Position numbers and translations under genes: made by a program. From positions 62,001 through 126,000 of the forward strand of contig JAHBUZ010000003.1 in the NCBI GenBank assembly GCA_019637815.1: DNA of 64,000 nt. Reading direction: 5' to 3'. Shown one piece after another: positions 43,039-64,000 of the stretch (position 1 is the stretch's first letter; every line of letters starts with the position of its first letter). The notes below the pieces were generated by a model. That model made no database searches and was not told the origin of the DNA. It worked only from the letters and a program-made list of their open reading frames with translations. This stretch comes from Chloroflexota bacterium. GTDB lineage: Bacteria > Chloroflexota > Limnocylindria > Limnocylindrales > CSP1-4.

Positions 43039-44741
43039 TGCCAGCCAAGGCCCCCGTCACCCAGGCACCGCCCACCTCCACCGAACCCCTGCGGATCATC
43101 CCGCTGGGCGGGGTCGGGGAGATCGGCAAGAACATGACCGTGTTCGAGTACGACGATGAGATCGTCGTCATCGACTGCGGTCTCGCCTTCCCGGACGAGG
43201 AGATGTTCGGCATCGACCTCGTCATCCCGGACGTCTCCTATCTCAAGGAGCGCCGTCACAAGGTCAAGGCGTTCCTCATCACGCACGCCCACGAGGACCA
43301 CGTCGGGGCGCTGCCGTACGTCCTGCCGGAGTTCCCGGGCGTGCCCGTCTATGCCTCGACGCTGGCGCGTGGCCTGCTCGCCAACAAGATCAAGGAGCAC
43401 AAGCTCCGCAACAACCCGCTGCTGCCGTTCGATCCGGGTCAGACCATCGAGCTGGGCGCGTTCTCGGCGCGCGCGTTCCGGATCGGCCACTCCATCCCGG
43501 ATGCGATGGGCATCGCGCTCCACACGCCGGTGGGCACGGTCGTGCACACCGGAGACTTCAAGTTCGACCAGACCCCGGTCGATGGCAAGGGCACGGACTT
43601 CCACGAGCTGGCCCGCCTGGGCGCCGAGGGCGTGCTGTGCCTGATGTCCGATTCCACGCGCGCCGAGACGCCCGGCTACACGCCCTCCGAGCGGACCGTG
43701 GGCGAGGCCTTCCGGGGCATCATGGAAGGGCTGGACGGGCGGGTCATCGTGGCCACCTTCGCGTCGAACATCGCGCGTATCCAGCAGGTGTTCGATGCCG
43801 CCGGCGAGTTCGGTCGCAAGGTGACGGTCATCGGTCGCTCGATGGAGCAGAACACGCGCATCGCGACCGACCTCGGCTATCTCCATCCGGGCCCCGGGCA
43901 GCTGGTCCCCAAGGACCGGTTGCGGGACATCCCCGATGCCGAGATGTGCATCGCGACCACGGGTGCCCAGGGCGAGCCCATGGCGGGCCTTGCCCGGATG
44001 GCCAACCGGGATCACCGGTTCGTGGAGATCGTGCCCGGCGACACGGTCATCGTGAGCGCGAGCCCCATCCCCGGCAACGAGGAGTACGTGGCGCGCACCA
44101 TCGACAACCTGTTCAAGGTGGGTGCCAACGTCTACTACCATGCCATCCGTCATGCACACGTCTCGGGCCACGCCAGCCAGGAGGAGCTGAAGCTGATGCT
44201 CAACCTGACCCGGCCGAAGACCTTCATCCCCATCCACGGGGAGTTCCGGATGCAGGTCGCACACGGCCGCATCGCAGCGGAGGTGGGTGTGCCCCCGGAG
44301 GGCATCTTCATCCTCGAGAATGGCCAGCCCATGGAGTTCTTCGCGGACGGCACCGTGCGTCGGGCCAACCCGGTGGAGGCCGGCATGGTGTTCGTGGACG
44401 GTCTCACCGTGGGCGAGGTCGGTGACGTCGTGCTGCGGGACCGACGCGCGCTCGCCAACGACGGGATGTTCCTGGTCGTGGTCACCGTGGACAAGCAGAA
44501 CGGGCGCCTGGTGGGCAAGCCGGAGGTGGTCACGCACGGCTTCGTGGCGACACCGGACGCGGCGCTCATCGCGGGCGCCACGGAGCGCATCGCCCGCGTG
44601 CTCGAGGGTCCGGGTGACCGGATCGACCGCATCAACGAGATCGCACTGCTCAAGGAGAAGCTCAAGGACGGCCTCTCCCGCTATCTGTACGAGCAGACCC
44701 GGCGGCGTCCCATGGTGATGCCCGTGGTCGTGGAGGTCTGA
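43038..44741 (+). CDS. rnj: ribonuclease J
   Basis: RNase J is a metallo-beta-lactamase/beta-CASP nuclease with 5'-3' exo- and endonuclease activity on RNA. The 567-residue protein has IIPLGGVGEIGKNMTVFEYD, the metal motif THAHEDHVGALPYVL (82-96), HTGDFKFDQTP, MSDSTRAETPGYTPSE and IPIHGEFRMQVAHGRIAAEVG, then the C-terminal domain. It lies in a tightly overlapping udg-rnj-ftsK group. Confidence 0.96.
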   Translation: MPAKAPVTQAPPTSTEPLRIIPLGGVGEIGKNMTVFEYDDEIVVIDCGLAFPDEEMFGIDLVIPDVSYLKERRHKVKAFLITHAHEDHVGALPYVLPEFPGVPVYASTLARGLLANKIKEHKLRNNPLLPFDPGQTIELGAFSARAFRIGHSIPDAMGIALHTPVGTVVHTGDFKFDQTPVDGKGTDFHELARLGAEGVLCLMSDSTRAETPGYTPSERTVGEAFRGIMEGLDGRVIVATFASNIARIQQVFDAAGEFGRKVTVIGRSMEQNTRIATDLGYLHPGPGQLVPKDRLRDIPDAEMCIATTGAQGEPMAGLARMANRDHRFVEIVPGDTVIVSASPIPGNEEYVARTIDNLFKVGANVYYHAIRHAHVSGHASQEELKLMLNLTRPKTFIPIHGEFRMQVAHGRIAAEVGVPPEGIFILENGQPMEFFADGTVRRANPVEAGMVFVDGLTVGEVGDVVLRDRRALANDGMFLVVVTVDKQNGRLVGKPEVVTHGFVATPDAALIAGATERIARVLEGPGDRIDRINEIALLKEKLKDGLSRYLYEQTRRRPMVMPVVVEV

Positions 44742-47233
44742 TGCCCGCCAGCCGCAGCTCGGGGAGTCGCTCCGGCGCCAAGCCGCGTGCCGCGCGGCCC
44801 GCGAGCCGGTCGAAGCGCACCGCGAGCGCCAGCGCCCCGAAGACGGTCCGGGGTCCGCTGTTCGCGCCCGGCACCATCCGCTCCATCGTGGGCGTGGTGC
44901 TCATCGTGCTGGGTGGCATCACGCTCGTGGCGCTCCTGCTCGGCGGCCAGGGGGTGTTCGGCACGTTCGTGACCGAGAGCCTCCGACCGACCTTCGGCCA
45001 GGGCGCATGGCTCCTGGGTGTGCTGCTCGTGGTGGCGGGCGTGCTCGTGGAACGAGCGCCACGCATCTCCCACGGCTGGCTCGCCATCGCGCTCGGCGGT
45101 GTGCTCGTCTTCCTGGCGGGGGAGGGCCTCATCCACCTCCTGTCCGGACGTGGCGATTCGCGGGCGGACCTGAGCGCGGGCGGCGGGGGCATCGGCGAGT
45201 GGCTCGCATCGACCCTGACGGACCTCGTGGGGTCGGCGGGCGCCTTCGTGGTGCTCGTGGGCGTGGTCGTGGTGGGCATCCTGCTGCTGTTCGACATGAC
45301 CCTCCGGGCGCTCGTCCAGCCGGTCTCGACCGGCGGACGGGTGCTGGCCAGCCTGACGGGGTCCACCATCGAGGCGGCCCGCGCCCGGAGCGTCCGCGAG
45401 GACGAGGACGACGGATCCCTGGAGGCCGTGCCCGCCGGACGGTCGAAGGCCCGGACACGCGCCGAGCCGGCCACGCCCGCGGCACCGCCGCGTGAGCGGA
45501 CGGAAGCGATCCCCATCCTGCCCACGCCGGTGCCCAGCCCGGCCCCGCTCAGCCAGACCGTGTGGTCGGGTGGTCTCCTCGATCCGACGGGACCCGGGCC
45601 CGCGCCCAACGGGACCGGTGGGAAGGCCGGACCTGGCCGACCCGGCGACGCATCGCCCGCGGGTGGCGCCGCCCCGGGGCGCGCTCCCGGTGGACGGGTC
45701 ATGGCTCCGACCGCGGACGGCGCCGTGGGGGTCCTGGCGCCCGACACCGAGGTCGCGCCCAGGCCGCCCCGGGAGTGGCAGTTGCCCGCGGTGGGCATCC
45801 TGGACCTGGGTGCCACGCCCGGCAACGGCGCGAGCGTCGACCACGAGCGCAACAAGCAGATCATCGAGGAGAAGCTGCGCAGCTTCCAGATCCCGGCCCA
45901 GGTGGTGGGCACCAACAGCGGCCCGGTGGTGACCCAGTACGAGGTCAAGCCGGACGTGCGGGTCAAGGTGTCGCGCATCGAAGGGCTGTCCGACGACCTT
46001 GCGATGGCCCTCGCGGCGCGCTCCATCCGCATCGAGGCGCCCATCCCGGGCAAGGACGTGGTGGGCATCGAGATCCCCAACCATGCCCCCGAGACCGTCG
46101 GCTTCCGGCGCCTGTTCGAGGACGCCCGGATGGACCAGGCGACCAGCAAGCTGACCTTCGCCCTGGGTCGGGACGTCTCCGGCAAGGCCTACGCAGTGGA
46201 CCTCGCGCGGATGCCGCACCTGCTCATCGCGGGTGCCACGGGCTCCGGCAAGAGCGTGTGTGTCAACGCGCTCATCACGAGCCTGCTCATGCGTGCCACA
46301 CCCAGCGAGGTGGAGCTGGTGCTCGTCGATCTCAAGCGCGTGGAGCTGGCCGCCTACGCGGACCTGCCGCATCTCAAGGCACCCGTGATCATGGAGCCCA
46401 ACCAGGCACGTGCCGCGCTCGCCTGGGCGGTCGGCCAGATGGAGGACCGCTACAAGGTCCTCGCGGCCAAGGGCGAGCGCAACATCGGCGCCTACAACGC
46501 CAGTCCGCGCGTCGAGGAGGACGAGCGGATGCCGTATCTCGTGCTGGTCATCGACGAGCTCGCCGACCTGATGATGCGCGAGGGTCGCAAGGTGGAGGAC
46601 CCCATCGTCAAGCTCGCCCAGAAGGCGCGCGCGGTGGGCATCCACCTGGTGCTGGCCACGCAGCGGCCGAGCGTCAACGTGGTGACCGGTCTCATCAAGG
46701 CGAACGTGCCCAGCCGTATCGCGTTCGCGATGGCCTCCAACGTGGACAGCCGGACGGTGCTCGATTCGCCGGGTGCGGAGGAGCTCATCGGCCGGGGCGA
46801 CATGCTGTACCAGCCGTCGGATCTACCGCGGCCGGTGCGGCTCCAGGGCGTGTTCCTGTCCGATGCCGAGGTGCGCGCCGTGTGCGACGTCTGGCGCGAG
46901 CAGGAGCCCGACCCGAGCTATGACCCGGATGTGCTGGCGGGTGCAGGCGAGGACGGCGAGGAGGGCGGCGGTCAGTTCGGCTGGCTGGCCAAGCTCGCCG
47001 AGGACGAGCTCACGCCACGCGCCGCGGAGCTGGTGCTCCAGACCGGCAAGGCGAGCACGTCGATGATGCAGACCAAGCTGAAGGTGGGCTTCAACCGGGC
47101 GAGCCGGCTCATGGACGAGCTGGAGCGCGTGGGCATCGTGGGGCCCCAGGATCCGCGCAACCCCGCGACGCCTCGCCAGGTGTACGGCCCGGAAAACTGG
47201 TTGCGTGGTCCGGAGGACGTCGACGACCTTTGA
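44741..47233 (+). CDS. ftsK: DNA translocase FtsK
   Basis: FtsK pumps DNA at division and activates XerCD recombination at dif. The 830-residue protein has four N-terminal transmembrane segments (about 45-190), a Pro/Gly/Ala linker (about 200-345), and the motor domain with DHERNKQIIEEKLRSF, Walker A GATGSGKSVCVNALI and Walker B LVLVIDELADLMM. It ends in a gamma winged helix (LQTGKASTSMMQTKLKVGFNRASRLMDELERVGIVG) that reads KOPS sequences. It ends EDVDDL. After the TGA, the same frame runs 22 codons to a second EDMDDL stop. Confidence 0.96.
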   Translation: MPASRSSGSRSGAKPRAARPASRSKRTASASAPKTVRGPLFAPGTIRSIVGVVLIVLGGITLVALLLGGQGVFGTFVTESLRPTFGQGAWLLGVLLVVAGVLVERAPRISHGWLAIALGGVLVFLAGEGLIHLLSGRGDSRADLSAGGGGIGEWLASTLTDLVGSAGAFVVLVGVVVVGILLLFDMTLRALVQPVSTGGRVLASLTGSTIEAARARSVREDEDDGSLEAVPAGRSKARTRAEPATPAAPPRERTEAIPILPTPVPSPAPLSQTVWSGGLLDPTGPGPAPNGTGGKAGPGRPGDASPAGGAAPGRAPGGRVMAPTADGAVGVLAPDTEVAPRPPREWQLPAVGILDLGATPGNGASVDHERNKQIIEEKLRSFQIPAQVVGTNSGPVVTQYEVKPDVRVKVSRIEGLSDDLAMALAARSIRIEAPIPGKDVVGIEIPNHAPETVGFRRLFEDARMDQATSKLTFALGRDVSGKAYAVDLARMPHLLIAGATGSGKSVCVNALITSLLMRATPSEVELVLVDLKRVELAAYADLPHLKAPVIMEPNQARAALAWAVGQMEDRYKVLAAKGERNIGAYNASPRVEEDERMPYLVLVIDELADLMMREGRKVEDPIVKLAQKARAVGIHLVLATQRPSVNVVTGLIKANVPSRIAFAMASNVDSRTVLDSPGAEELIGRGDMLYQPSDLPRPVRLQGVFLSDAEVRAVCDVWREQEPDPSYDPDVLAGAGEDGEEGGGQFGWLAKLAEDELTPRAAELVLQTGKASTSMMQTKLKVGFNRASRLMDELERVGIVGPQDPRNPATPRQVYGPENWLRGPEDVDDL

Positions 47234-49596: not shown

Positions 49597-51146
49597 CCCG
49601 CACCGCCGCGCAGATCGGCGCAGGGCTGGAGGCGGCTCGTGCGGCCAGGCCCATCACGTCCGGCAGCCGGATCCACGTGGTGGGAGCAGCGGGCGCCGGC
49701 GCATCGGCCGCGGCCTGGCTCGCGGCACGCGCGGGTGCCGTGGTGACCGGTTGCGACCCGGGCGCGCCGTCCCCGTACACGGCCGCGCTGGACGCGCTCG
49801 ATGTGGCCGTCGCGGACCACCATGACCCGGCGCACGTCGCCCGTGACGGTCAGGCGCTGGTGGACCGGGTCGCGGTGACCAAGGCGCTCACCGCCGTGGC
49901 GCCGGACCATCCGGAGTTGCAGGCCGCGCAGGCGGCGGGGCTCCGCCTGGAGGCGTGGCAGCAGGTCGTGGCGGACGCCGCCGCGTCGCAGGGTGGTCGG
50001 CTGATCGCGGTCGCGGGGACCCACGGCAAGTCCACGAGCGCCGGCTGGCTGGTGGCGCTGCTCACGGCCGCCGGTCGCGATCCAGGGGCGTTCGTGGGCG
50101 CCCTGCTGGCACCGGAGCTGACGGATGGACCGCCCGCCACGGCGCGCTGGGGGAGGGGCTCGGCGTTCGTGGTGGAGGCGGACGAGTACGCGGGCAACTT
50201 CGATGCGTACCGGCCGGACATCGCGGTGCTGCTCAACGCTGAGTGGGATCACCCGGACGTGTTCCTCGACGAGGACGCCGTGCTGGACACGTTCCGGGAC
50301 TGGCTCCTGGCGCCGGGTGCGCAGGAGCGGGTCGTGGTCGCGAACGTCGCCGATCGCGGCGTCGCACGGCTGGTGGAGCGGCTCCCGGTCGGCGCGATGG
50401 GCGTCCGCCGGGTGGTCCGGGTCGGGCTCCTGGATGACGGGGATCCGTCCAGCGGGCACACATCGAGGCCGGAGGACGGGCTCGACCTCGTCGGTCGGTC
50501 GCTGCCGGGTGCGCGACTGGTGCTCGATGGGCCGGCGCTGACGGCGGCGGGTGCGTCGGGCCCGCTGGAAGTCGCCCTTGCGCTGCCCGGTCGCCACAAC
50601 GCGGCGAACGCGCTGTGTGTCGCCGCCGCGGCGCTGGAGGCGGGTCTCACCGCCGAGGAGCTGGCGGCGCACCTGGGTGGATTCCGAGGGGTCGGTCGAC
50701 GGATGGAGGTGAAGGGCGAGCCGCGGGGCGTGCTGGTGCTCGACGACTACGGGCATCACCCGACGGCCATCGCCGCGACCCTCGCGGCCGTCCGCGAGAC
50801 GTACCCCGGTCGGCCCGTGTGGGCGGTGTACGAGCCGCTCACGTATCACCGGACCGCGGCCATGGTGCCGGCGTTCGCGGACGTCCTCGCGACGGCGGAC
50901 CATGCGGTCATCGCGGACATCTGGGCGGGCCGCGACCCGGACACCACCATCACCTCGGCCGCAGCGCTCGCGGAGGCGATCGGTGCGCGCACGACCCGGA
51001 CGGCCACGGCACCGGGCTCGGTGGAGGTCACCGCGGAGCATCTCGCCGCACGCGTGCGACCCGGGGACGTGGTACTGGTCATGGGCGGCGGGCGTTCGTA
51101 TGTCATCGCGGAACGGCTGGTGACACTCCTGTCCGAGGGCGGCTGA
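49593..51146 (+). CDS. murC: Mur ligase, MurC-like (UDP-N-acetylmuramate--alanine ligase type)
   Basis: The GTG at 49593 gives 517 residues. The N domain starts IHVVGAAGAGASAAAWLA (about 28-45). The ATP loop is VAGTHGKSTSAGWLVALL, then EADEYAGNFDAYRPDIAVLLNAEWDHPDVF and LPGRHNAANALCVAAA, and the C domain has VLDDYGHHPTAIAATLAAVRETYP. These match MurC (with Mpl as alternative). No other mur genes are adjacent, so cell-wall assignment rests on family likeness alone. Confidence 0.83.
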   Translation: MTRTAAQIGAGLEAARAARPITSGSRIHVVGAAGAGASAAAWLAARAGAVVTGCDPGAPSPYTAALDALDVAVADHHDPAHVARDGQALVDRVAVTKALTAVAPDHPELQAAQAAGLRLEAWQQVVADAAASQGGRLIAVAGTHGKSTSAGWLVALLTAAGRDPGAFVGALLAPELTDGPPATARWGRGSAFVVEADEYAGNFDAYRPDIAVLLNAEWDHPDVFLDEDAVLDTFRDWLLAPGAQERVVVANVADRGVARLVERLPVGAMGVRRVVRVGLLDDGDPSSGHTSRPEDGLDLVGRSLPGARLVLDGPALTAAGASGPLEVALALPGRHNAANALCVAAAALEAGLTAEELAAHLGGFRGVGRRMEVKGEPRGVLVLDDYGHHPTAIAATLAAVRETYPGRPVWAVYEPLTYHRTAAMVPAFADVLATADHAVIADIWAGRDPDTTITSAAALAEAIGARTTRTATAPGSVEVTAEHLAARVRPGDVVLVMGGGRSYVIAERLVTLLSEGG

Positions 51147-54279: not shown

Positions 54280-54317
54280 TCCGGGCCTGACGCGGCCCGG
54301 CGACCGGGACCGGCGCG

Positions 54318-55442
54318 TCAGTGGCGGTGGGCTTCCATGCGCTGCCAGTCCTGGCCGTCCACCGTATTCGGGTCGAAGCCCGGGTCATCCGATGACAGGT
54401 ACTCACCGTTCCGGTTGACCCACTGGTCACGGCCGCTGGGAAGCTGGACGATCCGGCCGGTCACCGGGTCCTTGTAGCTCCCCACGCCACCCAGGATCTC
54501 CTGGACGTACTGGGCCTGGCGGTCGGCCTGCTCCTGGCGCTCCTGGGTCACCTGCTGCCAGAGGGCCTGTGATTCCGCGCGGTACTGCCGGAGGAGCTCA
54601 CCGAAGCGTGCCGTGTCGGCCATCTGCTGCTGGATGCCCTGGTAGAACAGCTGCTTGACGAGGCGATAGGTCGCCTCCCACTCGGGCGTCGTGATGCGAC
54701 TCGCGATGATCGTCGACAGGAGTGCCTCCTGCTCGTCGATCGCGCCCCGGGGACCCGCGACCGCATACGCGAAGTTGACGAACCACGAGGTGATGCCGTT
54801 CGCCTGGGAGTACAGCAGCGCGAAGTGGACGTCCTGCTCCCATGGGGTGCCGTCATCGTCGAACTGGTACCGGAGCGTGTAGGCATAGGCCTCGCCCGGT
54901 CCCCCGAAGCCGGTCAGGAACTCCTGGGCGACACGTGGCTGCTGGGTGACGCTCACCGGTCGCAGACCCTGGAGGTGCGTGAGCACCGTGGGTGCCCAGA
55001 ACTGGGCCACGAAGTCCACGGGGTCCGTGATGGGCGGCACGTAGGCCTTGCCCTGGTAGTTGTCACCGATGCCGATCTGGAAGCCCTGGGCATCGAAGTA
55101 CATGAAGTCCTGGATCGGCAGCCAGTCCATGGTGATGCCCGTGGAGGGATCCTCGACATGCGTGTACAGGAACGCGATACGGGCCCACGTGGGCAGCCAC
55201 TGCACGCCACCCTGGGCGGTCCAGCCCTCCGGCAGGAGCATCACGATCGCCTCCTGGTCGCTGGCTGCAGGATCGCGAAAGGCGGTCCGCTGGAAGCGCC
55301 ACGTGCCATCGGGCACCTGGGCGAGCGTCGTCGTGGCGAGGAGCAGGGTGGCGATGACCGCCGCGAGCAGCGCGCAGACCGGCGAGCCACGACGGACGCC
55401 CGGTCGTGATCCGGGCGGGAGCGGGAGGATAGGCTGGGTCAT
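54318..55442 (-). CDS. secreted protein, unknown function
   Basis: Read on the minus strand from the ATG at 55442, 374 residues. A signal peptide is clear (VCALLAAVIATLLLATTTLAQ, about 22-42). The mature domain has many aromatic residues (PEGWTAQGGVQWLPTWARIAF, MDWLPIQDFMYFDAQGFQIG). A Gln-rich helix (about 285-315, QALWQQVTQERQEQADRQAQ) and a C-terminal segment with SYKDPVTGRIVQLPSG follow; the latter resembles ends of many secreted Chloroflexota proteins. No family is recognised. It is divergent from the phosphatase gene. Confidence 0.7.
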   Translation of the reverse strand: MTQPILPLPPGSRPGVRRGSPVCALLAAVIATLLLATTTLAQVPDGTWRFQRTAFRDPAASDQEAIVMLLPEGWTAQGGVQWLPTWARIAFLYTHVEDPSTGITMDWLPIQDFMYFDAQGFQIGIGDNYQGKAYVPPITDPVDFVAQFWAPTVLTHLQGLRPVSVTQQPRVAQEFLTGFGGPGEAYAYTLRYQFDDDGTPWEQDVHFALLYSQANGITSWFVNFAYAVAGPRGAIDEQEALLSTIIASRITTPEWEATYRLVKQLFYQGIQQQMADTARFGELLRQYRAESQALWQQVTQERQEQADRQAQYVQEILGGVGSYKDPVTGRIVQLPSGRDQWVNRNGEYLSSDDPGFDPNTVDGQDWQRMEAHRH

Positions 55443-55616
55443 GGTGCGCAAGGATGCCACGCGGCCGAGCGCGACGCGACCGAGTGTTCGGCGGCCTCGA
55501 TCGCGGATCGTCGTTCGCCCAGGAGGCGGGGCAGGGGACCCGGCTCGCCGAGCGCTCGCGGCGTCGCATCCGGAGGGTGCTGCAGCCTGCGCCGGACGCG
55601 GACCGGTCACCCGTCG

Positions 55617-55622
55617 TACGCT
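55617..55622 (+). promoter_or_regulatory. -10 of a leaderless phosphatase gene
   Basis: TACGCT, then six bases, then ATG at 55629; no Shine-Dalgarno. Confidence 0.5.
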
Positions 55623-55628
55623 GGGCAC

Positions 55629-56366
55629 ATGACCGTCCGCTCCCCCGTCGCTCCCGTGCTCGACCATCCCGATCGCCATCTGCCGTTGCCCGGCACGCGC
55701 AACCTGCGCGATGTCGGTGGCTATCCGACCAGCCTCGGGCGGGTGACCCGCTGGCGGACGCTCCTGCGCACCGACTCCCTCGACCTGCTGCCGGACACCT
55801 CGCAGGAGCAGCTCGTCGCGCTCGGGCTGCGCCAGGCGATCGACCTGCGCTGGCCGTCCGAGCTCGCGACGGCACCGTCCGTGTTCGCCCGGTCGGAGCA
55901 GGTGACGTATCGGAGCGTGCCGCTGCTCGCGGACGACCCGACGCCGCACCTGGGCCTCGTGGGCATGTATCGCCATATCCTCGACGAGCGGGCACGCCAG
56001 CTCATCGAGGTCGTGCGACTGCTGCTCGTCGACGAGGGCATCCCCGCGGTCATCGGCTGTGCCGCGGGCAAGGATCGGACCGGGGTGTCGGTGGCGCTGG
56101 TGCTTGCCGCGGTCGGTGTGCCACGGGATGTCATCGTCCAGGACTACGCGTGGTCCTCGGGCATGTTCGCATGGCCCAGCGAGGATCCCCATCTCGTCGA
56201 CTGGCGCAACGGTTCGGTGGAGACCGAGAGCCCGCCCGAGTACATGGAGGCCGTGCTCGACCACCTTGAGACACGTCATGGCGGCGCGCGGACCCTGCTG
56301 CGCTCCGGCGGGCTCATGGACGATGAGCTGGACCGCCTGGTCGAGGTCATGACCGAGCCCGCCTGA
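55629..56366 (+). CDS. tyrosine-protein phosphatase (MptpB-like, Y_phosphatase3)
   Basis: The 245-residue protein has the family N-terminal motif GTRNLRDVGGYPT (22-34), the phosphatase loop C144-AAGKD-R150 followed by TG, and the QDYAWSSGMFAWP lid-like region. This group includes M. tuberculosis PtpB-type enzymes acting on phosphotyrosine, phosphoserine or phosphoinositides. The substrate here is unknown. It is expressed from its own leaderless promoter. Confidence 0.85.
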   Translation: MTVRSPVAPVLDHPDRHLPLPGTRNLRDVGGYPTSLGRVTRWRTLLRTDSLDLLPDTSQEQLVALGLRQAIDLRWPSELATAPSVFARSEQVTYRSVPLLADDPTPHLGLVGMYRHILDERARQLIEVVRLLLVDEGIPAVIGCAAGKDRTGVSVALVLAAVGVPRDVIVQDYAWSSGMFAWPSEDPHLVDWRNGSVETESPPEYMEAVLDHLETRHGGARTLLRSGGLMDDELDRLVEVMTEPA

Positions 56367-56481
56367 ACGGTGCCGCGATGCCCGGCAGACAGCTGGACCA
56401 GGGGATCGCGGATCACGTCAGGCGAGGGATGCGACCGTGCAGGGTCCTGCCCTGCGAATGTTTCCGTATGGGGGATCGATC

Positions 56482-56910
56482 ATGAGTGACGAAGGACCGG
56501 GCTTTCCCGAGCCTGGTGCAGTGGTCGCGCCACTGCTGGTGGTGGCCGACCTGGACCGCTCCCTGGACTTCTATCGTGGCCTGGGTGCCACCGTCGTCGT
56601 TCGATGGGACGAATACGCGCGCCTCGCGCTCGCCGGTGGGGCGCTCCACCTCGCCACCCCGACCAGCGGGGTCGAGGACCGGCTCAGCGTGGATCTCGCA
56701 CCCCCAGCCTCGATCCACCTGGGGACGGGCGAGGTCGTCATCGACGTGGCCGACTGTCACGCGACGTATGCAGCGCTCGCAGCACGAGGGGTCCGGTTCC
56801 TCGCACCACCCACCGAGCCGTCGTGGGGCGGCGAGATCCGGTGCTTCCTCCAGGACCCGGACGGCCACCTGATCGAGCTCAGCCAGGTGCTCCCTTCCGA
56901 GGACGACTGA
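56482..56910 (+). CDS. VOC-superfamily (glyoxalase/bleomycin-resistance-like) protein
   Basis: The start is most likely the ATG at 56482 (142 residues), although GTG 56437 and ATG 56458 are in frame. VVADLDRSLDFYRGLGATVVVRW and VVIDVADCHATYAALAARGVRF precede FLQDPDGHLIELSQVL, the paired beta-alpha-beta modules of VOC proteins, with a metal-type His/Glu in the last motif. The exact reaction cannot be deduced. Confidence 0.82.
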   Translation: MSDEGPGFPEPGAVVAPLLVVADLDRSLDFYRGLGATVVVRWDEYARLALAGGALHLATPTSGVEDRLSVDLAPPASIHLGTGEVVIDVADCHATYAALAARGVRFLAPPTEPSWGGEIRCFLQDPDGHLIELSQVLPSEDD

Positions 56911-56970
56911 AGCGCGCTGGGTCCGGTGCGGCGCTCGGATCCGTGGCGGTGGAGGTCATCGGCTCCAGTG

Positions 56971-57003
56971 CCTCGTGCTACACTGATGTCGTGTAGCACG
57001 AGG
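56971..57003 (+). promoter_or_regulatory. vapBC promoter-operator: perfect 13-bp inverted repeat over the -10
   Basis: CCTCGTGCTACAC (56971-56983), a seven-base spacer, and GTGTAGCACGAGG (56991-57003) form a perfect dyad. The extended -10 TGCTACACT (56976-56984) lies in the left arm, and the right arm ends five bases before the vapB ATG. It is the expected binding site for the VapB ribbon-helix-helix dimer in autoregulation. Confidence 0.75.
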
Positions 57004-57008
57004 TCACG

Positions 57009-57242
57009 ATGGCGAACCTGACCGTCACGATCGATGCCGAGGTCCTCAAGCGGGCGCGGATCCGGGCCCTCGAACAGGGCACGTCCGTGAATGCGCTCGT
57101 CGCCGAGTACCTGGCGAGCTACGCGGGTGAGGACGACGCCCGCGCGGCGATGCGGGAGTTCCTGGAACGGACACAGCACACCCACGCGAGCAGTGGCCCG
57201 GAAGGTCGCACGTGGCGACGTGAGGACCTGTACGACCTGTGA
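57009..57242 (+). CDS. vapB: VapB-type ribbon-helix-helix antitoxin
   Basis: The 77-residue protein begins ANLTVTIDAEVLKRARIRALEQGTSVNALVAEYLASYA, a ribbon-helix-helix DNA-binding domain. An acidic/aromatic C-terminal tail (RTWRREDLYDL) follows, of the sort that wraps a PIN toxin. It overlaps vapC by four bases. Expression is probably repressed by binding the palindrome directly upstream. Confidence 0.87.
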   Translation: MANLTVTIDAEVLKRARIRALEQGTSVNALVAEYLASYAGEDDARAAMREFLERTQHTHASSGPEGRTWRREDLYDL

Positions 57243-57688
57243 GTGGTGCCTTCATCGACACGAACGTGTGGGTCTACGCGGTCGACGAGGCAGAACCGAC
57301 GAAGCAACTCCGTGCCAAGGCGGCCATCCAGGCCGAGATGGCTGTCGGGATCGTCGTCTCGGCGCAGGTCCTGGGCGAGTTCTATGTCACGGCCACCCGC
57401 AAGCTGGCCCGACCGCTGCTCCATGCGGATGCGCAGGCCTATGTCCGGGACATGCGGCGACAACGGGTCGTACCGATCGGCGACCGGCTGGTGGACGAGG
57501 CGATCGCCGGAGCACAGTCCTGGCAGCTGTCCTACTGGGATGCGCTGCTGCTGGTCGCGGCCCGAACCGCCGGGTGCGATCGACTGCTGACGGAGGACCT
57601 CCAGCACGGCCGCGCGATCGACGGCGTCACCATCGTCGACCCGTTCCTGGAGGGTGCGGAGGGTGCTGATGCAGACCCAGGCGCATAA
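57239..57688 (+). CDS. vapC: VapC-type PIN-domain ribonuclease toxin
   Basis: The 149-residue protein starts at the GTG 57239. PIN acidic residues are D7 (FIDTNVWVYA), E47 (VLGEFYV), D101 (YWDALLLVAA) and D120 (LLTEDLQHG), so the Mg-dependent RNase site is complete. VapC toxins cleave tRNA or rRNA when not bound by VapB. The last ten residues are acidic and may be disordered. Confidence 0.9.
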   Translation: MSGAFIDTNVWVYAVDEAEPTKQLRAKAAIQAEMAVGIVVSAQVLGEFYVTATRKLARPLLHADAQAYVRDMRRQRVVPIGDRLVDEAIAGAQSWQLSYWDALLLVAARTAGCDRLLTEDLQHGRAIDGVTIVDPFLEGAEGADADPGA

Positions 57689-57707
57689 CGACACGTCGAC
57701 AGCCCAC

Positions 57708-57887
57708 TCACCGGGCGCGAGCGTCCGATCCGTCGACCAGTCGATGGGCATCGCGCTCCGCGCGCACGCAGACCAGGCAGAGCGTCGCCGCTTCGGGGCC
57801 GACGAGGTAGATGCGGGCGAACTCCGGCCAGTGGCCACGACATATCCGATGCAGGAGGCCCGCTCGGCAGGGGCGTCGGCGAGACAT
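57708..57887 (-). CDS. small cysteine-containing protein, unknown
   Basis: On the minus strand an excellent ribosome-binding site (AGGAGGAGG ending five bases before the ATG at 57887) precedes a 59-residue frame starting MSRRRPCRAGLLHRICRGHW and containing CLVCVRAERDAH. The Cys/His spacing could form a small metal site. The family is unknown. Its promoter would overlap the dif-like site just upstream. Confidence 0.5.
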   Translation of the reverse strand: MSRRRPCRAGLLHRICRGHWPEFARIYLVGPEAATLCLVCVRAERDAHRLVDGSDARAR

Positions 57888-57959
57888 CGGTACCTCCTCC
57901 TGTGTATCCCTGGCGACAACAGCACGCGTTTCTGGCAACCGCACCTCCGTGGAACTGAC

Positions 57960-57987
57960 CTGTTACATAACTTCGATTATCGGAAGT
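57960..57987 (-). other. dif-like XerC/XerD recombination site
   Basis: On the minus strand the 28 bp read as arm ACTTCCGATAA (57987-57977), a six-base centre (57976-57971), and arm TTATGTAACAG (57970-57960). This is the XerC arm/6-bp/XerD arm layout. From memory, B. subtilis dif has arms ACTTCCTAGAA and TTATGTAAACT, matching 9 of 11 and about 8 of 11. The site is an AT-rich island in GC-rich DNA. It may be the chromosomal dif or an attachment site of a Xer-using mobile element. Confidence 0.6.
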
Positions 57988-58101: not shown

Positions 58102-58344
58102 GTGACACGCATCGATGCCTCGGAACGTCGCTCGATGGTCGAGGCGGTCGATCGACTCATCGACGAACAGCGGTCGCGATGCTTCTGGTACCTCCGATCG
58201 GACTGGTATCCCCGGGACGACCGGGCGCGCGTCCGCGCCCTGCGTCGGATCGAGGAGCGTGGCGATGTCGAGACCGTTGCTCGATCCGCTACCCTGAGAC
58301 GATGGTTCTCACCGAGCTCCAGCGCCGGATCTGTCGACTCCTAG
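58102..58344 (+). CDS. small partner protein of the AbiEii-like nucleotidyltransferase (putative antitoxin)
   Basis: The 80-residue protein reads VDRLIDEQRSRCFWYLRSDWYPRDDRARVRALRRIEERGDVETVARSATLRRWF. The frame extends to TTG 58066, but the -10 position fixes the GTG 58102 as start. Short proteins of this Cys-Phe-Trp-Tyr-Leu-Arg type are, to my recollection, often encoded just ahead of nucleotidyltransferase genes. The downstream gene overlaps it by 43 bases. An antitoxin role is inferred from this pairing; it is not the winged-helix AbiEi family. Confidence 0.6.
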   Translation: MTRIDASERRSMVEAVDRLIDEQRSRCFWYLRSDWYPRDDRARVRALRRIEERGDVETVARSATLRRWFSPSSSAGSVDS

Positions 58345-59138
58345 CACGGACGCGCGTCGAGTCTGGCGAGAGCTACGTCGCGGGTGCGGTGGCGCTCAAC
58401 GAGGCGATCGGCGCGATGCGTATCTCGCGGGACATCGACCTGTTCCACGACACGGACGAGGCCCTCATGGTGAGCTGGCAGGCGGACCGCCGCCTGCTCG
58501 AGGCGAGTGGGTTCGATGTGGAGATCGTGCGGGAGCGGCCGACGTTCATCGAAGCCCATGTCGCTTCGACCGAGGGTGGGGTGCGCGTCGAGTGGGCGCG
58601 TGACAGTGCCTTCCGATTCTTCCCGCTCGTGGCGCATCCGGACTTCGGGCTGGTGCTCCATCCGTTCGACCTCGCCACCAACAAGGTACTGGCGCTCGTG
58701 GGACGGCTCGAGGTCCGCGATTGGGTGGATGTGATCGAGAGCGACGCGCATATCCAGCCGCTCGGCTACCTCGCGTGGGCGGCGTGTGCCAAGGACCCGG
58801 GCTTCGCGCCCGGTGCCATCCTGGACGCCGCGGCTCGCTCGGCTCGATACGCCGCCGATGAGGTGGCCGAGCTCGCGTACGAGGGTGATCCGCCGGATGC
58901 AGCCACGTTGGGTCGGCGCTGGCATGGGATGCTCGCTGACGCCCGGCGCGTCGTGGGTCTGTTGCCGCCCGGCGAGATGGGGAGCTGTGTCCTCGGCGCG
59001 ACAGGCGACCTGGAACGGGCAGACCCCGATGAGTTGGCGCGCCTGGTCCAGGAAGGCCTGCTGACCTATCACCATGGCCGGATCGGCGGCGTGCTGCCCA
59101 TGGTCGGCGGACTCCCCCACCCTCCCAGGCCAACCTGA
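58302..59138 (+). CDS. AbiEii/AbiGii-like nucleotidyltransferase
   Basis: The ATG at 58302 gives 278 residues. YVAGAVALNEAIGAMRISRDIDLFHD carries the nucleotidyltransferase D-x-D (DID) after a substrate-like loop, and HPFDLATNKVLALVGRLEVRDWVDVIE is the family's central motif with the Lys. AbiEii-type enzymes act as toxins that modify tRNA 3' ends in abortive infection. Activity here is inferred. It follows its small partner and lies next to other toxin-antitoxin genes. Confidence 0.8.
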   Translation: MVLTELQRRICRLLARTRVESGESYVAGAVALNEAIGAMRISRDIDLFHDTDEALMVSWQADRRLLEASGFDVEIVRERPTFIEAHVASTEGGVRVEWARDSAFRFFPLVAHPDFGLVLHPFDLATNKVLALVGRLEVRDWVDVIESDAHIQPLGYLAWAACAKDPGFAPGAILDAAARSARYAADEVAELAYEGDPPDAATLGRRWHGMLADARRVVGLLPPGEMGSCVLGATGDLERADPDELARLVQEGLLTYHHGRIGGVLPMVGGLPHPPRPT

Positions 59139-60639: not shown

Positions 60640-61185
60640 CTACCCCTCCCCCTCGAACGACCGCTCCAGGGCTGCATCATCCGCGAGGAAGTCCTCCGTC
60701 ATGGTGATCTGCCCGCGCAGCGCCCCGAGCATCCGATCCGGCCGAAGCGGCTGGCCGTCCATGGCACGCAAGGCCTCGATGGCGGCGCGCTCATCCTCGT
60801 CCAGCGCTTCGGCGTCAGGGTCGGGCGTGCCCAGGAAGGTCTCGACGATCTCGACCGCCACCTCCGGCGCAAGTCGCTTGAGACTCATCGCCAGTACGTT
60901 CGCGTCGTTCCAGAGCCGTGCGACTCGGGCGATCCACGGCTCCCATCCGAGGGCGCAGCGGACTCCCGGCACCTTGTTCGCAGCCATGGCCACGCCGGTC
61001 CCGGTCCAGCACATCACGACACCGTAGTCGACGGTCCCGTCTGCGACCGCTCTCCCGACCGCTGCTCCGATGCCCGGCCATGCAGGGCCGCCTTCGACCG
61101 CGATCAGCTCGACGTGGTCGGCGAGCCATGTCTGGACCGCTCGGGTGGTCTCGCTCTCATCGTCCGCCGCGAATGCGACCCGCAT
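60640..61185 (-). CDS. RpiB/LacAB-like sugar-phosphate isomerase
   Basis: Minus-strand ATG at 61185; 181 residues. The core has PGIGAAVGRAVADGTVDYGVVMCWTGTGVAMAANKVPGVRCAL with C59 at the catalytic position, and RLWNDANVLAMSLK where RpiB usually has HNDANVL, so the catalytic-type His is Trp92. The usual CGTG is CWTG. It is probably a divergent aldose-ketose isomerase; substrate unknown. The last 60 residues are acidic and extra. Confidence 0.78.
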   Translation of the reverse strand: MRVAFAADDESETTRAVQTWLADHVELIAVEGGPAWPGIGAAVGRAVADGTVDYGVVMCWTGTGVAMAANKVPGVRCALGWEPWIARVARLWNDANVLAMSLKRLAPEVAVEIVETFLGTPDPDAEALDEDERAAIEALRAMDGQPLRPDRMLGALRGQITMTEDFLADDAALERSFEGEG

Positions 61186-61243: not shown

Positions 61244-61870
61244 TCAGCGAAGGCCGTAGCCCAGGTCGTCTGCGAGTCGTCGAAGCGGGAGGTCGAGCCC
61301 CGGGTGCACCAGCGGGATGTGGAGGCTCGGGTGACTCGGCATCGCGTCCTCGACCACCTCGAAGAGCGCGAGGTTCCGCGAGCCTCCGGCCATGGATGAT
61401 CGATAGAGCAGCCCCTGGATCGACGGATACGCTGCCCGGATCGCTCGGCTCCATGCCCGGGCGATGTCACGCCGCCCCGTCGACAGCGCCTGGCTGGCAC
61501 CCGCCCGAGTCGGCCATGCACCGGTGAGATCGAGCAACGGCACCTCCCGGTGCAGCTCGAACCCCGCGAGCCACGGCTCGCCCCAGGTGCGGTCGATGAT
61601 CCGCGTCTCCTGGAAGACTTCCGCGACCGTGGCGATGATGTCCAGCGCGGCGTAGATGATCCCGTGAGCCGGGTCGTCGTGCGGAGGCCGAGGATGGGGG
61701 TCGAAGCGGCCGGTGGCGAGTGGCCCGTACCGTCGGAACGCCGACCAGGTCGATGGATGGCGGCCACCCGCCCGATAGATGCGCCAGGTGGTCGTTCCTG
61801 TGGGGAGTCGGTGGATGTCGCGGGCCCGCAGGAGCGGCAGGCGCTCGGGTGGCAGTGGGAGCTTGGCCAC
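61244..61870 (-). CDS. RES-domain toxin
   Basis: Minus-strand GTG at 61870; 208 residues. The RES fold is visible in TTTWRIYRAGGRHPSTWSAFRRYG, GRFDPHPRPPHDDPAHGIIYAALDIIATVAEVFQETR and GLLYRSSMAGGSRNLALFE, with the Arg, Glu and Ser implied in catalysis. RES toxins such as MbcT and ParT break down or transfer NAD. It follows its antitoxin gene by nine bases. Confidence 0.85.
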   Translation of the reverse strand: MAKLPLPPERLPLLRARDIHRLPTGTTTWRIYRAGGRHPSTWSAFRRYGPLATGRFDPHPRPPHDDPAHGIIYAALDIIATVAEVFQETRIIDRTWGEPWLAGFELHREVPLLDLTGAWPTRAGASQALSTGRRDIARAWSRAIRAAYPSIQGLLYRSSMAGGSRNLALFEVVEDAMPSHPSLHIPLVHPGLDLPLRRLADDLGYGLR

Positions 61871-61879
61871 GGGTGCGGA

Positions 61880-62521
61880 CTACAGGTCGCGGGCGAGGGC
61901 CACCACCGGCTCGGGCGCCCCGCCGGATCGAAGCCAGTCCAGGGGCGAAACGAGCGAATCGCCGAGCTCGAGGTCCGAGCTCGCTGCGGTCAGGAAGGAC
62001 CATGCGTCGACCGGATGCAGATCCTCCGGCAGCGCGGTCACGACAGCCGACAGACCGCGGACCTGCCGGTCCCCGTCGAACTGTGCGCGCGGGAACCGCC
62101 ACTCCTCCCCTTCCCTGATCGCGAACAGCGTCCGCTCCGTGGCGCGTTGCCGGATGCGTGCGGGGGTGACACCGAGGCGCCCGGACACCTCAAGCACGTC
62201 GGCGGAGTCAGCAAGGAGCGCCGCGTATCGAGCGATGGTGGCGGCCACCGGATCGGGTTCGCTGCTCCGACGCGGCGAGAGGTCGAGGCCACCCGCGTCG
62301 AGGAGCCTGCGCTCGTGTTCGGCCATCTGGGAGGCCGGATCGGCGATCCCTGACGGCCGAGCATCCCGGACCGCAGCGATGGCGACCGCCGAGAAGCGGC
62401 GCTCGTCGATCCCCGCCGAACGCAGCGCAGCGCGAAGCGCCGCGAGCTCGTCGCGCGCCGGGTGGCGCTCCTGCGACGCCGCCGCGGATGTGGCCTTGGT
62501 TCTTGTCTGGGCTATCGACAC
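61880..62521 (-). CDS. Xre/MbcA/ParS-like antitoxin of the RES toxin
   Basis: Minus-strand GTG at 62521; 213 residues. An alpha-helical protein with a winged/HTH-like segment (LADSADVLEVSGRLGVTPARIRQRATERTLFAIREGEEWRFPRAQF), then LPEDLHPVDAWSFLTAASSDLELGDSLVSPLDWLRSGGAPEPVVALARDL. The latter is the DUF2384-like toxin-binding part, found typically upstream of RES toxins. Expression is leaderless from TATCAT six bases before the GTG. Confidence 0.82.
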   Translation of the reverse strand: MSIAQTRTKATSAAASQERHPARDELAALRAALRSAGIDERRFSAVAIAAVRDARPSGIADPASQMAEHERRLLDAGGLDLSPRRSSEPDPVAATIARYAALLADSADVLEVSGRLGVTPARIRQRATERTLFAIREGEEWRFPRAQFDGDRQVRGLSAVVTALPEDLHPVDAWSFLTAASSDLELGDSLVSPLDWLRSGGAPEPVVALARDL

Positions 62522-62652: not shown

Positions 62653-64000
62653 CTATGCCACGCTGGAGAGTGGATCAGCGTAGTCGTCGGATTCGGCCAC
62701 CACCGCTCCCGCCGCCCGTACCACGGCCGCGCGCAGCTCCGGCCGAGCGGCGAGGATGTCCGGGCCCACCCGGACGGCATAGCCCGGATACCGCTTGACC
62801 GCGGTCATCAGCGAGGTGCCCGTCTCGACGGTCGCGACGAGGCAGGCGAGGAATCTCGCCGCCGGGTAGTCCCAGATGGTCAGGTGGCGTCCGGCGTACG
62901 GCAGGCACGCCCCCCGCGGGCGCGTCAGGCCGGGTCACCGACCCGGTGGCCAGGCGCTCGTCGCTCGGGTCCATCGGCTCGACCACCGACACCATCCGGA
63001 TGGCGGCGTCCACGTTGTGGAGGACGACATCGCCCGGGCGCATCTCCCGCAGCAGCCGCCAGCCACCCTTGGGCTCGTCGGGCGCGCACAGGATCCCCAG
63101 GCACGTCTCGTTCGAGACGCCCTGGTTGACCTGGTAGACCCGTGGATCCCGTGGTCCCTCGACGATGGTCGGCCTGCCGCCGGGGACGGAGATGCGCCGT
63201 CCCACGGACGCGGCCGACGCCGCCTTGGCAGCGAACGAGGACCGGTCGGCCACGACCACCATCGGGTCTGCCGTCGCGGTGAACCGTGCCCTCCCGAGCC
63301 CCGCCTCGTCGATGAATGCGTCGAATGCGTCCCTCGCCTCGGGATGGGCGGCGAGCACGTCCTCGCGGAGCACCCGGACGACCCACGCGATCACCAGCGG
63401 GTCCTCGCCCAGGTCGTTCCCATGAGGTGGGCGATGGTCGAGCGTCATCACGTGCCGCTTCGGGCTGGGCGAGAGGAAGTGGTTGAAGGGGGACAGGTTG
63501 CGGAGCGCGCGGATGCGCTGGTACTCGTCCGGATCGGCCGTCGCCAGTCGCGCGAGCGGGTCGTCGCCTCTGCTTCGCCTGGGCGAGCACGGCAGGATGT
63601 GGCTCAGTTTCCAGCGTGCGGTCCAGATGATCGGGTTGGCTCCGTCCACGCAGCGGCCGAGGAGCTGCCACTCCCGGGCCAGGGCGCGCTCGTCGGGACG
63701 GAGCCGATGGGCGGCCGGCACCGCCCGGGAGCGAAGGCTCCGAAGTAGGTCCGGCGGAGCGGCGCCCTCGCGGCTGCTCCGGAGCAGCCGCTGATGCAGC
63801 CAGATGGCGGGTGAGTTGTCGGTGAAGACGAGCGTGCGGCTGGCGCCGCCTTGGGTCTCCTTCGCCCTCGGCTGCGACCCTTGGCGGCGGACCAGGAGGG
63901 GCAGGGCACGATCCTCGATGGCCTCATGGAGTGCGTGGTGCGCAGCAAGGATGCTGTCGGGGCCCACGAGCAGGTCTTGGGTCAGCAGCTCCTCGCGGAC
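62653..64000 (-). CDS. EVE/PUA-like domain protein, frameshifted in this sequence and cut by the window edge
   Basis: On the minus strand the frame is open from the window edge (VREELLTQDLLVGPDSIL) to about 62915. It has unknown N-terminal sequence (KLSHILPCSPRR, RNLSPFNHFLSPSPKRHVM) and then an EVE-like stretch, RVYQVNQGVSNETCLGILCA to GGWRLLREMRPGDVVLHNVDAAIRMVSVV. It then turns into Arg/Gly-rich nonsense. Another frame from 62934 to the TAG at 62653-62655 reads well (YAGRHLTIWDYPAARFLACLVATVETGTSL). Removing one base from the six-C run at 62910-62915 joins the two. EVE-like domains are common in modified-DNA restriction proteins, but no nuclease motif is proved here. Confidence 0.6.

Follow-up and report, generated by a model that had tools for sequence, protein, structure and literature searches.

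The locus examined here raises the question of whether a 28-bp dif-like sequence in a genome of the Limnocylindrales (CSP1-4 group) is the chromosomal dif, or a Xer attachment site that belongs to an integrated element or to a pdif-style module. The initial annotation of the window (the whole stretch of 64,000 nucleotides that was analysed) had put forward these alternatives. It had described two minus-strand arms with a six-base spacer that stand out from GC-rich surroundings, and the sequence is exactly as described, with a GC content of 67–72% around it. The site has the architecture of a chromosomal dif, two 11-bp arms and a 6-bp centre, and its arms resemble those of known dif sites. Named after E. 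coli dif, its parts would be:

57960–57987, minus strand: dif, 28 bp, ACTTCCGATAA TCGAAG TTATGTAACAG, compared with the sites of relatives
57977–57987, minus strand: left (putative XerC-side) arm ACTTCCGATAA, nearly invariant within the family
57971–57976, minus strand: central region TCGAAG, the final G invariant in 72 sites, the other bases variable
57960–57970, minus strand: right (putative XerD-side) arm TTATGTAACAG, outer five bases genus-dependent

When both arms were required, the centre was left free and up to three mismatches were allowed, this pattern matched once in the window and never in 100 dinucleotide-preserving shuffles of it; no dif-like match is expected by chance. A genome-wide count, as had been proposed, likewise gave one site (≤3 mismatches) in the 4.07-Mb, 61-contig assembly, at 119960–119987 of a 239-kb contig (C23). 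A shortened pattern yields one extra match in the assembly, with three mismatches. The exact site is absent from the viral contigs searched.

Among the relatives, all of which are draft MAGs and not independent samples, 70 of 107 genomes of the family carry the site when one mismatch is allowed, almost all of them in exactly one copy, and reversed-pattern controls were near zero. The other 37 family genomes, which gave no match, may be incomplete MAGs, have assembly breaks at dif or contain diverged sites. At the class level, 100 of 177 genomes have a match. In the sister family the site is single-copy in 16 of 19 genomes, with the arm variant CCGATAA and, throughout, the same centre. In a more distant family, 12 genomes carry it as CCGCAAA variants; a further family of the class (f3) has no match to the pattern used. 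The same site also occurs in the records LDXM01000006.1 (CSP1-4) and JAUSJS010000365.1 (“Candidatus Limnocylindrales bacterium”). An alignment of 72 sites shows almost no variation in the XerC arm and a G at the end of every centre, though the search pattern had left the centre free; the five outermost bases of the right arm differ from genus to genus. The search pattern partly demanded the inner arm bases, which therefore cannot count as independently conserved; this applies less to the invariant G and to an almost invariant ACT. The flanks directly beside the site are unalignable even within one genus, which makes the 28 bp a conserved island in changing DNA. Instead of a better dif elsewhere and a lack of conservation, the combination that the initial annotation regarded as fatal to its proposal, we thus find a single copy that is conserved in relatives.

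The recombinases that would act on such a site are encoded as well. A strong Xer homolog is present in all 37 genomes checked, most of which have two or more. The genome under study contains two canonical Xer genes (C34 and C39), which answers the question of whether XerC and XerD genes accompany the site. The C34 protein is XerC-like (277 bits against XerC, 247 against XerD) and the C39 protein XerD-like (311 bits against XerD, 279 against XerC); both score below the NCBIfam equivalog cut-offs, and both show, on reading by eye, the motifs customary near the catalytic residues. The DNA translocase gene lies within the window itself:

44741–47233, plus strand: ftsK, with 4TM, alpha, motor and gamma domains (Pfam), transcribed toward dif and 10.7 kb from it

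Its gamma domain matches PF09397 (E = 4.2e-20).

Further evidence for the position of the terminus comes from short polar motifs. In four discovery genomes, including the present one, GGGGAGGG and GGGGGAGG are the most dif-polarised of all octamers (84:5 each). They point at dif from both sides, and they match the E. coli KOPS consensus GGGNAGGG (PMC2680272, PMC5357621). In held-out genomes of the family, the ratios of copies directed toward and away from dif were 162:17 for GGGGAGGG, 49:4 for GGGTAGGG and just 57:37 for GGGCAGGG. An origin of the polarity in Shine–Dalgarno sequences or codon usage was rejected, because the motif is still directed toward dif in 22 of 23 cases within genes transcribed away from dif, and in 15 of 17 intergenic copies. 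The best switch points of the motif bracket dif in all four genomes (−2.7/+7.8, −2.2/+5.7, −1.0/+3.2 and −0.9/+1.3 kb), and in the discovery genomes its density is about 3.5-fold higher within 20 kb of dif, which resembles the dif activation zone of E. coli (PMC5357621). All copies in the window point toward dif:

50149–50157, plus strand: KOPS-like GGGGGAGGG, directed toward dif
10863, 19824, 38821, 40756, 42273 and 45118, plus strand: further KOPS-like motifs, directed toward dif
60644–60652, minus strand: KOPS-like motif on the opposite side of dif, directed toward dif

These short G-rich octamers, skewed toward dif regardless of gene direction, are therefore candidate KOPS that may be bound by FtsK gamma and may orient its loading. 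The coding strand also switches at dif in three genomes (G000, G006 and G012), so that polar motifs and gene orientation converge at the site, as in a chromosomal dif. GC skew is too weak in this clade, with no clear switch at dif, for the skew comparison suggested by the initial annotation to be informative. In none of the genomes checked, which are draft MAGs, did a full-length dnaA share a contig with dif.

The conservation in single copy, the polarity of the KOPS-like motifs, the flip of the coding strand and the Xer/FtsK complement all favor the chromosomal alternative, and we regard it as very probable that 57960–57987 is the chromosomal dif of this genome and would work in XerCD/FtsK dimer resolution. 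These 28 bases are almost certainly the sole place where the duplicated chromosomes are separated at cell division. By analogy, XerC and XerD would bind one arm each, presumably the arms named for them above, and would recombine the chromosomes at dif. FtsK would load on polar GGG[G/T]AGGG sequences, which are oriented toward dif on either chromosome arm, and drive the terminus across the septum; its gamma domain would activate XerD, whereby chromosome dimers would be resolved to monomers. Toxin-antitoxin and other accessory genes would be passengers of a fast-changing segment at dif. This layout closely follows the dif/XerCD-FtsK systems of the E. coli and B. subtilis type, with which it shares the 28-bp site, its occurrence once per chromosome, the XerC and XerD genes, FtsK gamma and KOPS-like motifs. 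It differs from them in its arms, the XerC arm being almost invariant and the outer half of the XerD one genus-dependent, and in that the ftsK gene itself lies 4–56 kb from dif.

The latter difference concerns the neighborhood that the initial annotation had found oddly close to ribosomal genes. This closeness is real: bS16, bL19, EF-Ts and bS15 genes (named by eye) lie at 9.7–34.7 kb in the window, within a long block on the XerD side of dif; rRNA or other Rfam matches were not found in the window.

585–54279, plus strand: smc-ftsY-ffh-rpsP-trmD-rplS-tsf-pyrH-frr-nusA-infB-truB-rpsO-pnp-asd-rnj-ftsK-rodZ-cinA-mpl-yajQ-TPP-enzyme block, XerD side, directed toward dif

The gene names of this block were assigned by eye and homologs were mapped by tblastn; only ftsK was checked against Pfam, and gene calls were heuristic throughout. 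In all 16 genomes (from three families) that have ftsK and dif on one contig, the smc-ffh-tsf-nusA-infB-pnp-ftsK block lies on the XerD-arm side and is directed toward dif, with ftsK 4–56 kb away and transcribed toward dif. In the remaining genomes ftsK is on a contig other than that of dif, and in one (G035) the two are over 61 kb apart or unlinked. Descent from a single shared ancestor can explain this closeness across the relatives. The gene families on the XerC side include HflX, MiaA/MiaB, YmdB, RNase Y and RecA (names from Pfam families). According to Kono et al. (2011; PMC3025954), ftsK is in most cases located between an xerC close to dif and an xerD close to the origin, and some closeness of ftsK to dif would thus not be unheard of. 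Their predictions for Chloroflexi likewise place a dif in this phylum; the genomes named there are three of Dehalococcoides, and neither Limnocylindria nor an adjacency of ftsK and dif is among them.

The DNA between this block and dif is hypervariable. In the window it is represented by a short version:

54280–57959, no strand: hypervariable segment from the conserved block to dif, 3.7 kb

This gap measures 0.1–1.8 kb in families f2 and f4 and 3.6–50 kb in the present family. Between genomes of one genus, the alignable share of the 10 kb next to dif is 10% on the XerD side, compared with 52% on the XerC side. The XerC side aligns better in all 150 ordered pairs and in all 22 genomes; the pairs are not independent, as 132 of them come from one genus. 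The XerD-side cargo includes PIN proteins, acetyltransferases, methyltransferases and defence-like genes. Assembly breaks also accumulate here, with eight contig ends within 250 bp of dif on the XerD side (P about 1e-5) and two on the XerC side, 1.2 being expected on each. Such ends were rejected as proof of integration, because k-mer overlap makes the position of a break ambiguous. In one MAG, two contigs (G070:C32 and G070:C175; loci L245 and L246) share an exact 141-bp overlap containing dif, which is a branch of the assembly graph.

Toxin-antitoxin genes had been placed on both sides of dif by the initial annotation:

57009–57242, plus strand: small DUF6364 (RHH-like) protein, putative antitoxin by its position
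57239–57688, plus strand: PIN-domain (VapC-like) putative toxin (Pfam)
58302–59138, plus strand: AbiEii-like nucleotidyltransferase, weak match (23.8 bits, cut-off 22.5)
61244–61870, minus strand: RES-domain putative toxin (Pfam), 3.3 kb right of dif
61880–62521, minus strand: possible antitoxin upstream of the RES gene, by position, with no Pfam match above its cut-off

This description holds for the left side, where the RHH-like/PIN pair ends 271 bp from dif, but on the right it shrinks to the weak AbiEii-like match and the distant RES gene with its possible partner. The genes beside dif look like accessory cargo: those on the left fit the accessory segment, and the right-hand ones fall within the initial kilobases of the XerC side, which are less conserved. 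The PIN gene was rejected as a marker of a viral element, as it has no relative in the viral contigs. At 62675–63967 on the minus strand, a 430-aa open frame has no Pfam match at all.

Could the site then be the attachment site of an IMEX, which uses the host Xer recombinases and would leave a second, perhaps degenerate, copy at its far end? Elements inserted at dif are known from other organisms (CTXphi, GGI and elements of Legionellales; PMC5357621, PMC9765430) and share with the present case the variable DNA abutting dif; the hypervariable XerD-side flank and the excess of contig ends there would both suit such an element. However, the duplicated or degenerate second site of those elements was not found, either in the present assembly or in about 4.3 million flank positions of relatives, which include the complete gap between dif and the block in 12 genomes and contain no second site at up to nine mismatches and no excess of half-sites. 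The cargo families listed also lack any integrase, phage-structural or transposase signature. The partner copy sought by the initial annotation is thus missing, and we consider an IMEX unlikely. A related and similarly doubtful idea is that the XerD-side gap is a lineage-wide integration zone, in which Xer/FtsK would capture or turn over DNA without a duplicated site and ftsK would be kept near its target.

A pdif-style module, with Xer sites on either side of toxin-antitoxin genes as on Acinetobacter plasmids (PMC6449649), would account for the toxin-antitoxin-like genes on both sides of dif. It requires two or more Xer sites, however, and just one was found; the Limnocylindrales site is moreover single-copy throughout the family and conserved in position, on a contig whose smc-ftsK block and length mark it as chromosomal. 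This explanation is therefore highly improbable. Even less can be said for an AT-rich sequence arisen by chance or an unrelated regulatory palindrome. The intergenic position of the site and nothing more would agree with this, while the empty shuffles, a core conserved across the family between unalignable flanks, and a motif polarity centred on the site make it practically inconceivable.

With the chromosomal dif as the preferred reading, a dif, a KOPS-like motif and a predicted terminus position are now given for a large uncultured lineage of Chloroflexota in which GC skew is too weak to reveal them, and the orientation of chromosome arms can consequently be read from fragmented assemblies. 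A KOPS-like consensus fitting that of E. coli in so distant a phylum bears on the conservation of FtsK gamma recognition. The persistent proximity of ftsK to dif and the variable segment beside dif on one side only are peculiarities of terminus organization that can be tested; for now they are descriptive.

A phylum-wide scan with a loosened pattern was discarded: outside the class, matches were mostly no better than reversed controls, and no dif is therefore claimed beyond it. Two genomes of one Chloroflexota genus (G237 and G388) gave hundreds of matches to the loosened pattern. In a congener (G265:C1:3176516–3178492) such matches are about 75 bp apart, which makes repeats inside a single gene more probable than Xer sites.

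Dif-like sites are also numerous in a member of the Bacillota. The 5.4-Mb genome of Ectobacillus panaciterrae DSM 19096 (G519) contains 140 sites of the form ACTNCCGATAA N6 TTATGT (≤1 mismatch), compared with 2 for the reversed control. In 14 Ectobacillus loci (L113, L100, L148, L105 and L129 are among the dif-like loci of this genome), adjacent sites have the same orientation in 24 of 26 pairs and are spaced 0.08–4 kb apart, with gene-sized segments between them (DUF4259, SnoaL-like, EamA and spore permease). These look like integron-like or pdif-like cassette arrays on Xer sites, on which a literature search found no paper. Marinococcus halophilus (G520) and M. halotolerans (G521) have 9 and 11 dif-like sites, respectively.
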